From contig NZ_OBEJ01000001.1 of NCBI RefSeq assembly GCF_900215575.1, forward strand, positions 1-64,000: DNA of 64,000 bases, read 5' to 3'. The notes under the pieces were generated by a model, which made no database searches, was not told where the DNA came from, and saw only the letters and a program-made list of their open reading frames with translations. This DNA comes from Natronoarchaeum philippinense. GTDB lineage: Archaea > Halobacteriota > Halobacteria > Halobacteriales > Natronoarchaeaceae. Position 1 is the first letter of the stretch; every line of letters begins with the position of its first letter. The position numbers and the translations under genes were made by a program. Below are positions 7,490 through 13,017 of this stretch, one piece after another.

Positions 7490-8182
7490 ATGAGCGCGAA
7501 CGCGACGGTTACGGCGAGCGATTTTTGGAGTTCGTTGCGGGGCGCCGTTCGGCTGGTGTACGACGAGGTTGTTCCCGTTTCGGTGATCAGTCTCGGTACA
7601 AGCTTGCTACTGTTCCCTCTCGTCACGATCGGCCCGGCGTGTCTGGCCGCCGTTGTGACGATGTCCGAAATCGCCCATCGACGCGGCTCCGCCAGCGGGC
7701 GCTCTGAACGTGAGCGGCTTCGATCGTTTCCGTCGGCGATCCGGCGCTATTTCCGGGCCGGAATCCCGTTTTCGGTGCTGATCGTGTTTACAGCCTTGAA
7801 TCTCGTGACATACGTCCTACTTGCCTCGGCGAACGACTCGGCAGTGTTCTGGTTCGGCGCCGCGCTGGCGCTCTACACGTTGATCATCGTCGTCGCACTG
7901 ACCTTTCGAGCGGGGAGTCTGCTTGCAGACGCCGGCGCCGATACCGACGAACTTCCTGGAACTCGTGCTCTTCTCGCACAGGGCGTCGATGTGTGGCTCC
8001 AGAGTCCGTGGTACTCTGCAATACATCTGCTCGTTGTCGCGTTCATTTTGCTCGTGATGGTGCTGCTGACGCCGGCAGCGATGGTCCTGCTTGCAGGATC
8101 GCTTGCGGCGCTGGAGGTCGTCGTCTACGAGGACTTGGCCGGTGATGGTGCGGCGACGTTCTTCGAGGAGAACGACAGTTAA
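7490..8182 (+). CDS. Integral membrane protein, possibly YesL (DUF624)-like
   Basis: This 230-residue protein has five or six hydrophobic spans (about residues 28-58, 88-112, 118-142, 165-190 and 190-215). The spacing of helices and the run SSLRGAVRLVYDEVVPVSVISLG resemble the YesL/DUF624 family, but no diagnostic motif is certain. It contains no signal peptide and no cytoplasmic domain beyond short loops. It lies 60 bases after the beta-oxidation fusion gene, and its own start follows a GC-rich leader; co-transcription is possible but unproven. Function is unknown. Confidence 0.75.
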   Translation: MSANATVTASDFWSSLRGAVRLVYDEVVPVSVISLGTSLLLFPLVTIGPACLAAVVTMSEIAHRRGSASGRSERERLRSFPSAIRRYFRAGIPFSVLIVFTALNLVTYVLLASANDSAVFWFGAALALYTLIIVVALTFRAGSLLADAGADTDELPGTRALLAQGVDVWLQSPWYSAIHLLVVAFILLVMVLLTPAAMVLLAGSLAALEVVVYEDLAGDGAATFFEENDS

Positions 8183-8294: not shown

Positions 8295-8867
8295 ATGTCC
8301 GACCAACCTGCAGAAATACTCGTCGTAGACGACGAATCGAGGCTGGCAGATCTCTTCGCGGCTTGGCTGTCAAGCGACTGGTCTGTCGAAACTGCGTACG
8401 ATGGGGAAAGTGCGCTGGAATCGATGCAAGACTCCGTCGAAATCGTGCTTCTCGACAGGCGAATGCCCGGACTATCGGGCGATGAAGTTCTATCGGAGAT
8501 TAGGGATCGTGGCTACGATAGTCGCGTCGTCATGGTCACGGCTGTCGATCCTGACTTCGACATCATCGAGATGGGTTTTGACGACTATCTCGTCAAGCCA
8601 GTCTCGAAAGACGAGCTTGTCGAGGTAGTCGAACGTGTCGAGACCCGTTCTGCCTACGAGGCCGACATCCAGCAGTACTACTCGCTCGTCTCGAAGAAAT
8701 CACTACTCGAAGCCGAGAAATCGGACCGTGAACTCGACGAGAGCGACGAGTACGACGAGCTGTGTAAACGGGTCGATTCGCTGCGCGGGCAGGTCGACGA
8801 CACCGTCTCCGGACTCTCCGACCACGACGACTTCGTCGGTGCATTTCAGGATCTACCGGGCGAGTAA
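8295..8867 (+). CDS. HalX-type response regulator
   Basis: This 190-residue protein has a receiver domain (residues 7-122) followed by a HalX domain (about 123-185). The acidic pocket is VDDE (11-14), the phosphorylated residue is D54 in VLLDRRMPG, and the conserved Lys appears in YLVKPV. The HalX domain is a charged helical region found only in haloarchaeal regulators and is not a recognised DNA-binding domain. No histidine kinase is encoded nearby, so it is probably an orphan served by a distant kinase. It lies just upstream of the giant secreted protein gene at 9064 and could control it, but that is inference from position only. A close relative is encoded at 53169. Confidence 0.93.
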   Translation: MSDQPAEILVVDDESRLADLFAAWLSSDWSVETAYDGESALESMQDSVEIVLLDRRMPGLSGDEVLSEIRDRGYDSRVVMVTAVDPDFDIIEMGFDDYLVKPVSKDELVEVVERVETRSAYEADIQQYYSLVSKKSLLEAEKSDRELDESDEYDELCKRVDSLRGQVDDTVSGLSDHDDFVGAFQDLPGE

Positions 8868-9010: not shown

Positions 9011-9048
9011 ATATTATTCCGCAAGTTTATAACAGAAGGGAATAATAT
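9011..9048 (+). promoter_or_regulatory. Perfect 10-base inverted repeat enclosing a TATA box
   Basis: ATATTATTCC (9011-9020) and GGAATAATAT (9039-9048) are exact inverted copies separated by 18 bases. The spacer holds TTTATAA at 9026-9032, 32-38 bases before the ATG at 9064, a plausible TATA box. A regulator bound to both arms would flank or cover the TBP/TFB site, as expected of a repressor operator. The downstream genes encode a giant secreted protein and its anchored partner. Confidence 0.65.
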
Positions 9049-9063
9049 TGCTTCCCAATCTGG

Positions 9064-12000
9064 ATGAAATTTGTAAGAGTGGTGCTATTGGGACTTGTCG
9101 TCACTGGCGCTCTCACCCCAATCGCAGCGACAGGCTCACCGACGGTTTCGCCGGCTCTCGACACCGACAAGCCATTTGCAGAAGCTGGTCTCGATCAAAC
9201 TGCTACAGTTGGCGATCGAGTATTGTTGGACGGCGGCGGATCACGTGCCGCGTCCGGTGTCGTCTCGCAGTACGACTGGACGATCACCGGGCCGAACGGA
9301 TCGACGTTCCAACCCGCCTGCAGTCGGTGCGTTCGCACCTCGTTCGTCCCGAACAGATCGGGACGGTACGCCGTAACGCTGACCGTCACCGACGACAGCG
9401 GCCGATCGCACGCCGATACCATGTACGTTGACGCTCGGGTTGTTGACGGGCCTTCGGTGTCGATTTCGGGTCCACGCCGTCTCGTCCGCGGTCGCACTGG
9501 CGAGTTCACTGCCGATGTTCGTACAGGCGATGCGGAGCTCAGTCGCATCCGCTGGTCTGTCGACGACACAGAGATACAGAACGGCTCTCTTGATGGTCCC
9601 GGCACCGTGTCGCTCCAACGGTCCTTCGATGACTCCGGAACCTCCATTCTACGTGCGACAGTTCGCGACGGTGCCGGTCGGACGCAAACCGTCACGCACC
9701 GGGTCAGAGTCACAGGCACCGGCGTATCGAATACCGATCCGGCAGATCCCGAACTAACCGTTCGTGGCCCTCAACTTCTGACTGGCACGGCACCGTTCGA
9801 CGCGACGTACGAGATTGCCGGTCCTGACGCTGATGCTGTTGATGGGGCAACGTGGTACGACGACGACGGCGCACGTGGCGACAGACCACGGCTCGATACT
9901 CAGTGGAAAGCCGGGACCCACCAACTCTTTGCCGCAGCTTCTATCGGTCCCAACGCCTATCCGGCTGCGTTCGACAATGGCACTCGCGTCGTCGTCGACC
10001 CACGGCCACAGGTATCAGTGAACGTCTCCCAGTCAGACGCGACGCTTACTGGCACGATCAGTGCATCTGACGGTTTCGGCAATCTCGACTCGGTCACGTT
10101 GTACGTCGACGGTGAGTCGTCTCGGCAGTGGTCGCCCGACAGCGGGTCCGGGTTCCGGACCGGGTTTTCGGTTAGCCTTCCTGCTGAGCAGGATTCCAGC
10201 CAAGTCCGTGTTGTCGCCACTGACGAGCGGGGACAGACTGCGGCGGCGAGCAACACTGCTGGCGAGCCTGAAATAGTTCGCTCTGGCTTCGTCAACGGCC
10301 CTGTCGATTCGTATCACGAGCGTATCGACCCCGACCGATACACGGCGGTTCACGAGACTGTTGTAGAGTTGAACGGTGTCGATCCGAGTACGGTTTCGCC
10401 ACAGCTTTCTTCTATTTTTGATTATAGTGATTTGAGGCAGTTGGAGGCCCCTAGACGGCACTACGACCCTGACACTGGTCGGTTAACGATTACATCAGAA
10501 TGGGCTGGAAAAGCACCTAGTAGTTACACGTTTTCAATAACTTCTAATCAACTAGAATATGACCGGTCTTCTTTCACTGTAACAAATAGTCCTCCAGAGC
10601 CACGGATCGAAATTGTTGATGAGGGACAAGATTCACATTATGAGGGACATCTACTCCGTGTCGATGTAAGTGGCACTTTTGACCCAGATGGCGATAAATT
10701 GTATTTCAACGTCCAAGATCGAAGACGTAACTCTGATGATCCAGACGTAATTGGTATAGAATTTGATGATACTCCCGGTCTCAATATAATTGGTGAACAG
10801 CACCGAGTAGATCTTTCTTCAAAGCTCTACGACTACTGGAGTCCTGATATTACAAGTGTCGAAGAGGTTTCGACGGGACCGTACAACGCTAACGATTCAA
10901 TCCGGTTCCGCTTTGAGACTGAGACGTACCAACTCGCAAATCCGGAGTACACCCCATCGTTTGATGTTCAATTCAGAGGTAGCACTGGTCGTGTTATCGA
11001 ATTAAACAAAGAGGTTCGTGGCTCAACCACTGGTCCTGATCCTGCACCGAAAGAATTCGATCATCCACGGTACGTGGGAACAGTCGAAGTTGACGCTAGC
11101 TCGTATCTTGACAGCACTAATCCGTATATTGGCCTTGCAAACGTTGAACAGCCGAGCCAGAGCAGGCAACTGGTTGAACTTCCTTCAGTGAATGTCTTTG
11201 AGCGCGACAAACTCCAACGTAACAATGTAGAAGTAACAGATATTCAGTATATGCAGGCCAAAAAATATCAAAAGAGAACTAGTTCGGTCCGCACGCGCAT
11301 CCGGTACCAATCTATGGGGTACCGTATTCAGTCATCTTCACGCTCGTTAGATACGATAACGATTGAATCGCGTGAAACACGACCTGTCGTCGTGGATACC
11401 AAGACGTTCTCTTCACGAGCTCGCAGAAAGCAATACATTTCGACTCATCCTCTGTGGTCAACTGCAGGGACCACGGAGCAACAAACAACACGCGAGGTGA
11501 CTGAGTGGTATGATACACGGCATTCTGCCCGTGGCTACACCGGTAAAAAGCGAGTACGCACAACCTGCTCGGGTCCCGAAGCGTATCGCTACGGTGGTCG
11601 CTGTGTCCCATCTACTGCACTCGATTCTAACACACAATATTTACATAGATATAGTAAAAAAAAAAAAATACATGAAACAATGTATGTTGCTGAGAAGCGC
11701 GAGACTCGGAACCAGTGGACTCATCACCGAAACGTAAACTCTCGTCTCATCGCTTCGTTATTAACTCGCAATTCCGATCTGCGAATCGGGTCTCGTCAAT
11801 ATTCTACTCAATGGAACCTAGTCAAATCTTCCGACGAGACGTTTGTCTCGAACTCTTACGAGGATCCATCTGATGTGATCAAAACGATGGCTGCAGTTAA
11901 GACTGATTTACAGTATACCAAGGTAGGTATCACTCCACCTGATAATAAGCTCATGACGATAAGACAACTTGATGGTGACACCGTATTTGCTGGATATAAA

Positions 12001-12087
12001 ACTCGGAAAGAAATTGTTGACGCGGTCAAATCTGGTGCACATATTTCGACGACTGGATGTTCAATCGACGGAAGCATCGGGTGTTGA
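9064..12087 (+). CDS. Giant secreted protein with PKD-like N-terminal domains
   Basis: This 1007-residue protein starts with a Sec-type signal (MKFVRVVLLGLVVTGALTP, cleavage near 24-28). Residues about 40-125 form a PKD-like beta-sandwich (AEAGLDQTATVGD ... YDWTI ... YAVTLTVTDDSG), and two or three Ig/PKD-like repeats follow to about 440. From about 445 to the end the sequence is unlike the first part: rich in Tyr, Arg, Ser and Thr, with many TETYQ/RETR-like strands and almost no recognised motif. DNA composition also changes abruptly at this boundary (see findings). Paired cysteines (CSRC near 80; others near 835-848 and 999-1007) may form disulfides outside the cell. There is no C-terminal membrane anchor, but the next gene, 3 bases on, encodes an anchored protein. 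A surface adhesin or secreted structural role is likely; function is unknown. Confidence 0.85.
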   Translation: MKFVRVVLLGLVVTGALTPIAATGSPTVSPALDTDKPFAEAGLDQTATVGDRVLLDGGGSRAASGVVSQYDWTITGPNGSTFQPACSRCVRTSFVPNRSGRYAVTLTVTDDSGRSHADTMYVDARVVDGPSVSISGPRRLVRGRTGEFTADVRTGDAELSRIRWSVDDTEIQNGSLDGPGTVSLQRSFDDSGTSILRATVRDGAGRTQTVTHRVRVTGTGVSNTDPADPELTVRGPQLLTGTAPFDATYEIAGPDADAVDGATWYDDDGARGDRPRLDTQWKAGTHQLFAAASIGPNAYPAAFDNGTRVVVDPRPQVSVNVSQSDATLTGTISASDGFGNLDSVTLYVDGESSRQWSPDSGSGFRTGFSVSLPAEQDSSQVRVVATDERGQTAAASNTAGEPEIVRSGFVNGPVDSYHERIDPDRYTAVHETVVELNGVDPSTVSPQLSSIFDYSDLRQLEAPRRHYDPDTGRLTITSEWAGKAPSSYTFSITSNQLEYDRSSFTVTNSPPEPRIEIVDEGQDSHYEGHLLRVDVSGTFDPDGDKLYFNVQDRRRNSDDPDVIGIEFDDTPGLNIIGEQHRVDLSSKLYDYWSPDITSVEEVSTGPYNANDSIRFRFETETYQLANPEYTPSFDVQFRGSTGRVIELNKEVRGSTTGPDPAPKEFDHPRYVGTVEVDASSYLDSTNPYIGLANVEQPSQSRQLVELPSVNVFERDKLQRNNVEVTDIQYMQAKKYQKRTSSVRTRIRYQSMGYRIQSSSRSLDTITIESRETRPVVVDTKTFSSRARRKQYISTHPLWSTAGTTEQQTTREVTEWYDTRHSARGYTGKKRVRTTCSGPEAYRYGGRCVPSTALDSNTQYLHRYSKKKKIHETMYVAEKRETRNQWTHHRNVNSRLIASLLTRNSDLRIGSRQYSTQWNLVKSSDETFVSNSYEDPSDVIKTMAAVKTDLQYTKVGITPPDNKLMTIRQLDGDTVFAGYKTRKEIVDAVKSGAHISTTGCSIDGSIGC
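11656..11668 (+). repeat. Thirteen-A homopolymer inside a coding region
   Basis: A run of 13 adenines encodes four consecutive lysines and the first base of an Ile codon near residue 868 of the giant secreted protein. Such runs are very rare in high-GC haloarchaeal genes and are prone to polymerase slippage, so this could be a phase-variable site or a place where the assembly is wrong. The reading frame as given stays open. Confidence 0.9.
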
Positions 12088-12090
12088 ACT

Positions 12091-13017
12091 ATGTTTAAAT
12101 CACGCGAAGCTATAATTATAACTTTAGCTATTACTTCATTCTTTTTTATCGGTGGGACTACTGCAAATGACACCCTCTCTAGCTTTCAAAAGAATTCTAA
12201 CATCGTCGAAACTGAACAGAATATTTCGAATGGCTATAATGTCAATGTGTCCGTAACATCACAACATAATGCAACTATTCACTTTCAAAAGGTAGAAAAA
12301 TCACTATTTAAACCCGAGGTGGATTTAAAAATTGATGGGTATAAAGTAAGTAGGTCTGGTCCTACTTTGGAAAATGGTGGGACTTGGTCAACGAATGTAA
12401 ATTTATCCAATAAATATAACGTTTCCAAAAAGAACCATTCAGTCAGAGTCAGCTCTTTTGGCGTCGTTGTTAACACAACCCTCACTAAACAGTACGACCT
12501 CGAAAACCCAAACATCCCCGCCACTCGGATACAGAACGTCGAAGTCGTCGAGACAAAGCACGACGGCGAGCCAACCGCTGCCGTCGACGTTGTATTCAAA
12601 AATCCTTCACCTCGCGTATACGGTGCATCCATCTATGCGCACACTCTCAAGACTAATTTAAGGACTGGCAATGCAATGGTCCCGAGAAATCAGACCACTA
12701 TGGTCACAAGGCTTCACCTGCGGGAAGATCCAGATGAGATGGTCGAAGGCGAGTTACGTATGACAACGACGCGACTAAACAAGGACAAAGGACTCCGCGA
12801 TCAGGTGTGGTTCCGTGGCACTGCAGATGGCGACACGGAGTGGCAGCGAGAGCCATACGAGCCTGTTGGGTACATTTCAGGTGAAAATCCGTACACCTAC
12901 AGCAAGGACGAGGGGCTCCTCGAATCATACGGCCTCTCGACCAGACAGGTCCTCGGAGGCGGTGTTCTTGCAATCATAGCTATCGCGCTTGTGTTCCGAA
13001 GGCGAACCAGTTGGTGA
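12091..13017 (+). CDS. Membrane-anchored secreted partner protein
   Basis: This 308-residue protein has an N-terminal signal sequence (hydrophobic segment about residues 7-24) and a C-terminal transmembrane helix (about 285-302, GGGVLAIIAIALVF) followed by RRRTSW. It should therefore be displayed outside the cell and held by its tail. The exterior part is beta-rich and full of Asn, Ser and Thr, with several N-x-S/T sequons for archaeal N-glycosylation. No catalytic motif is seen. It starts 3 bases after the giant PKD-like protein and is surely co-transcribed with it, so it is a plausible cell-surface docking partner. The first 400 bases are AT-rich, the rest is normal GC. No archaeosortase PGF-type signal is present. 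Confidence 0.82.
   Translation: MFKSREAIIITLAITSFFFIGGTTANDTLSSFQKNSNIVETEQNISNGYNVNVSVTSQHNATIHFQKVEKSLFKPEVDLKIDGYKVSRSGPTLENGGTWSTNVNLSNKYNVSKKNHSVRVSSFGVVVNTTLTKQYDLENPNIPATRIQNVEVVETKHDGEPTAAVDVVFKNPSPRVYGASIYAHTLKTNLRTGNAMVPRNQTTMVTRLHLREDPDEMVEGELRMTTTRLNKDKGLRDQVWFRGTADGDTEWQREPYEPVGYISGENPYTYSKDEGLLESYGLSTRQVLGGGVLAIIAIALVFRRRTSW

Follow-up and report, generated by a model that had tools for sequence, protein, structure and literature searches.

In a perfect inverted repeat around the TATA box of a haloarchaeal PKD-protein operon, one half is probably a conserved promoter element and the other private to its genome

A perfect inverted repeat flanks the TATA box of a gene for a putatively secreted PKD-domain protein in Natronoarchaeum philippinense, and only one side of this repeat is conserved among relatives. 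The most probable reading, to which we assign a probability of about 0.6, is that the site is an ordinary haloarchaeal promoter that carries a conserved one-sided element and a right arm private to this genome. The repeat lies at positions 9011–9048 of the window, the 64,000-nucleotide stretch that was analyzed (contig NZ_OBEJ01000001.1, positions 1 to 64,000; the promoter elements, the operon and the HalX gene described here are on the forward strand), and has the form ATATTATTCC-GCAAGTTTATAACAGAAG-GGAATAATAT. Its left arm (9011–9020) and right arm (9039–9048) are exact reverse complements of 10 nt each, separated by a spacer of 18 nt, and the axis of the dyad falls on TTTATAA (9026–9032), just as the first-pass annotation of this DNA had described. 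One further pair follows past one mismatch, so that 11 of 12 positions are paired.

The gene downstream of the repeat (9064–12087) encodes a protein of 1007 residues with a hydrophobic, signal-like segment and a single PKD domain, both N-terminal; the description of this protein as ‘giant’ was overstated. A gap of 3 nt separates it from the second gene of the apparent operon (12091–13017), whose 308-residue product has a signal-like N-terminus and a C-terminal hydrophobic segment, and the two genes are paired in all eight relatives examined. A REC-HalX response regulator (8295–8867) adjoins the PKD gene in g1 and in the sister genus (g3) and is found elsewhere in the genome in a further genus, g2. 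In the congener, the sole one available, and in two sister-genus species the common gene order is acyl-CoA dehydrogenase, 3-hydroxyacyl-CoA dehydrogenase/enoyl-CoA hydratase, small membrane protein, REC-HalX, PKD gene, partner, DUF7350 and DHH. A membrane protein of 230 residues encoded at 7490–8182 of the window matches the MusI family (NF052431) weakly, below the cutoff.

The PKD gene and its partner (9064–13017) are 49–50% identical to their counterparts in the congener and evolve faster than their syntenic neighbors, which are 68–96% identical. Fast divergence is common for surface proteins. Homologs of the PKD protein are widespread in the order, with a match in 152 of 293 genomes, many of them over the PKD part only, and a protein scan of genome contigs for nearer relatives returned only Halegenticoccus soli, at 33%. 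A search for defence or named families found none for the two operon proteins.

The sequence upstream of this operon has the hallmarks of a haloarchaeal core promoter, for which dRNA-Seq in Haloferax volcanii gives a consensus of BRE CGAAA, TATA box TTWT and a WW motif at −10 (PMC4983044). Here, a BRE-like CGCAA (9020–9024) is followed by TTTATAA, the center of which stands 35 nt from the ATG, and an AT-rich −10 region and a short leader complete the likeness. In this reading, one core promoter would serve both genes of the operon, which encode a putatively secreted PKD-domain protein and a partner anchored in the membrane, with TBP predicted to bind TTTATAA and TFB the BRE-like bases that precede it. 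From the usual TATA-to-start distance, transcription would begin near 9056, placing the right arm between the TATA box and the start. Two features differ from the consensus promoter: the predicted leader of about 8 nt, where a leaderless start predominates, and an extra conserved ATTATTCC directly 5′ of the BRE (PMC4983044). Positions just 5′ of the BRE are known to hold positive and negative elements at sptA and a negative one at phaRP (PMC6085418). The conserved 11-mer ATTATTCCGCA (9013–9023), whose 3′ end overlaps CGCAA, may be either an extended BRE or the half-site of a regulator that touches TFB.

Conservation distinguishes the two arms. Between the window and the congener, 9 of 10 positions are kept in the left arm, 7 of 7 in the TATA box and 14 of 18 in the spacer, whereas the right arm keeps only 5 of 10, and the dyad is therefore gone in the congener. 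The gene order and the TATA-to-ATG distance are the same in both genomes, as is the 11-mer, and a short stretch between TATA and ATG, TATTGC (9046–9051), is also common to both and would lie near the haloarchaeal −10 (WW) position. The adjacent HalX promoter served as a control: over the stretch compared, the same two genomes agree at 90% of positions, and constraint can therefore be seen at this evolutionary distance. When the two sister-genus species are added, the four-way alignment retains essentially the left element and the TATA box (TNTTCCRYA-nn-TTTWTA), and the right arm is absent. Because the left arm and the TATA box are kept and the right arm is not, the conserved feature is a one-sided element over the BRE and TATA box. 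A homodimer operator would account for such one-sided conservation less well than a regulator half-site or an extended BRE. The right arm appears private to this genome, most simply through a lineage change, by parsimony over few genomes, and it is most likely a by-product of the AT-rich sequence of the −10 region.

A broader set of promoters agrees with this pattern. Among 31 ortholog promoters examined, the dyad occurs in none besides the window's own, dyads are not enriched across the set, and the two half-sites are not kept together in the congener, in g3 or in g2, the right arm being absent from the latter two. We also considered whether each lineage has its own dyad in the PKD promoter and rejected the idea: only 4 of the 31 promoters reach p<0.05, including the window's own and two more from mutually close relatives. 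The first-pass annotation had held that free variation of the arms between close relatives would speak against an operator, and this is largely what is seen, the right arm being lost and the left arm kept. The pattern of conservation speaks against a conserved operator.

The dyad is also unique. The search for further copies proposed in the first-pass annotation found none in the 3.16 Mb of the genome, whether as exact matches, with variable spacing or with up to 3 mismatches, and none in the genome of the congener under the same settings. The 11-mer ATTATTCCGCA is present once in each of these two genomes, at the PKD-gene promoter only, and in all four genomes compared that promoter is the only site with an exact match to TNTTCCRYANNTTTWTA. 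Further copies are not obligatory for a regulator with a single target.

How unusual the dyad is depends on the property considered. The window contains 10 perfect inverted repeats with arms no shorter than 10 nt and spacers of 0–30 nt, against a mean of 6.5 expected from order-1 simulations of the window (simulated range 3–12), so the dyad is not exceptional by arm length alone; longer perfect repeats (11–12 nt) are present in GC-rich sequence. It is, nevertheless, the sole TATA-centered one in the window, where the other runs at 43 TATA-like sites reach at most 5. Across 384 kb of the same genome (a 320-kb sample of genome stretches plus the window), the next-best TATA-centered run at 190 TATA-like sites is 7, and no other 10-bp repeat has AT-rich arms. 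A run of at least 10 at a TATA site arose in 6 of 20,000 simulations, or P ~3e-4 per site, which corresponds to ~0.06 over the 190 sites and, by extrapolation, ~0.5 over the whole genome. The TATA-centered position of the dyad is unusual and merits attention, and it falls short of proof. That such an outlier should arise by chance at any one promoter with a probability of only ~3e-4 counts against reading the site as an ordinary promoter.

The same outlier status favors a species-specific operator, which is the alternative that survives best and which we consider possible but doubtful. A homodimeric winged-helix repressor would occupy both arms, whose centers are 28 bp apart, cover the BRE and TATA box and block TBP and TFB. 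The perfect TATA-centered symmetry favors such an arrangement; the dyad does span the BRE and TATA box, as known haloarchaeal repressor sites do, and negative semi-palindromes over the BRE or the WW motif have precedents at sptA, phaRP and xacR (PMC6085418). The closest comparison is with SPS1–SPS3 of sptA in Natrinema sp. J7-2, where inverted repeats over the BRE or around the WW motif likewise belong to a secreted-protein gene, but their arms are shorter (3–5 bp) and lie off the TATA center (PMC6085418). Those elements have been tested by mutation (PMC6085418), whereas the dyad described here is one 10-bp repeat, with the TATA box in its spacer, known from sequence. Against an operator stand the loss of the right arm in both the congener and the sister genus, an extrapolated chance expectation of about 0.5 such dyads per genome, and the lack of a second site in the genome, which would leave its regulator with a single target. 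The earlier claim of tight regulation by an operator was thus right about the promoter position and the repressor-like geometry, and it is weakened by a right arm that is not conserved. With a single congener to compare, whose PKD protein shares just 49% identity, the lineage-specific gain of a real operator keeps some plausibility.

Other relatives carry different elements in this promoter. Just 5′ of the PKD-gene ATG, the two sister-genus species have a nested TATA-to-ATG dyad, TTATTCTATGCAGG(A/T)ATTAAATCCTGCAAGAATAA, which is near-identical in both while the sequence upstream drifts; a single change breaks an inner pair. From its sequence, it would be a better operator candidate than the dyad of the window, and its core lacks both a close second copy and an obvious regulon. 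We rejected kinship between the two dyads: they have TTATTC/GAATAA half-sites in common, but differ in spacing (23 vs 20) and position. In genus g2, all four ortholog promoters contain GTAACTAA between TATA and ATG and then a similar stretch that closes with ACGA ahead of the ATG, and this promoter element is conserved despite PKD proteins that are ~35% identical to the window's. In Halegenticoccus soli, a bulged inverted repeat, GGTAGCCGAACTATTCGGTGCTACC, lies between TATA and ATG 5′ of the PKD gene and is not significant against shuffles (p ~0.26). One could speculate, at rather long odds, that the promoter of this fast-evolving operon turns over lineage-specific candidate operators, with a TATA-flanking dyad here and a different TATA-to-ATG dyad in the sister genus, each served by a dedicated regulator.

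The regulators named in the first-pass annotation find little support. Binding of the dyad by the REC-HalX response regulator, which would then control the PKD operon, is suggested by its gene lying directly upstream on the same strand in g1 and g3. However, HalX is 92% identical in the congener and 84% in the two sister-genus species and still adjoins the PKD gene there, while the dyad is absent; in g2, the two genes are apart. DNA binding by HalX domains is not documented (PMC5847659), and we regard this assignment as very improbable. An apparent tracking of the dyad with HalX adjacency was ruled out by the congener. For the proposed Lrp/TrmB-type repressor, no Lrp or TrmB gene is present among the nine neighboring genes scanned, from 4.2 to 18.2 kb. 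Least probable of all is a hairpin, acting as a cruciform or an RNA leader structure: single-strand folding beats 199 of 200 shuffles, as expected of any perfect dyad, but the repeat lies upstream of the predicted start and so would not be transcribed, it is not conserved, and a structured RNA at the dyad was rejected after a search that gave no Rfam match.

The preferred reading of an ordinary promoter with a one-sided element implies that a perfect TATA-box dyad can combine a conserved promoter element in one half with private sequence in the other, and symmetry alone is therefore no ground for calling an operator. Were the operator reading true, the dyad would act as a switch that is specific to this species and has the secreted-protein operon as its only target.
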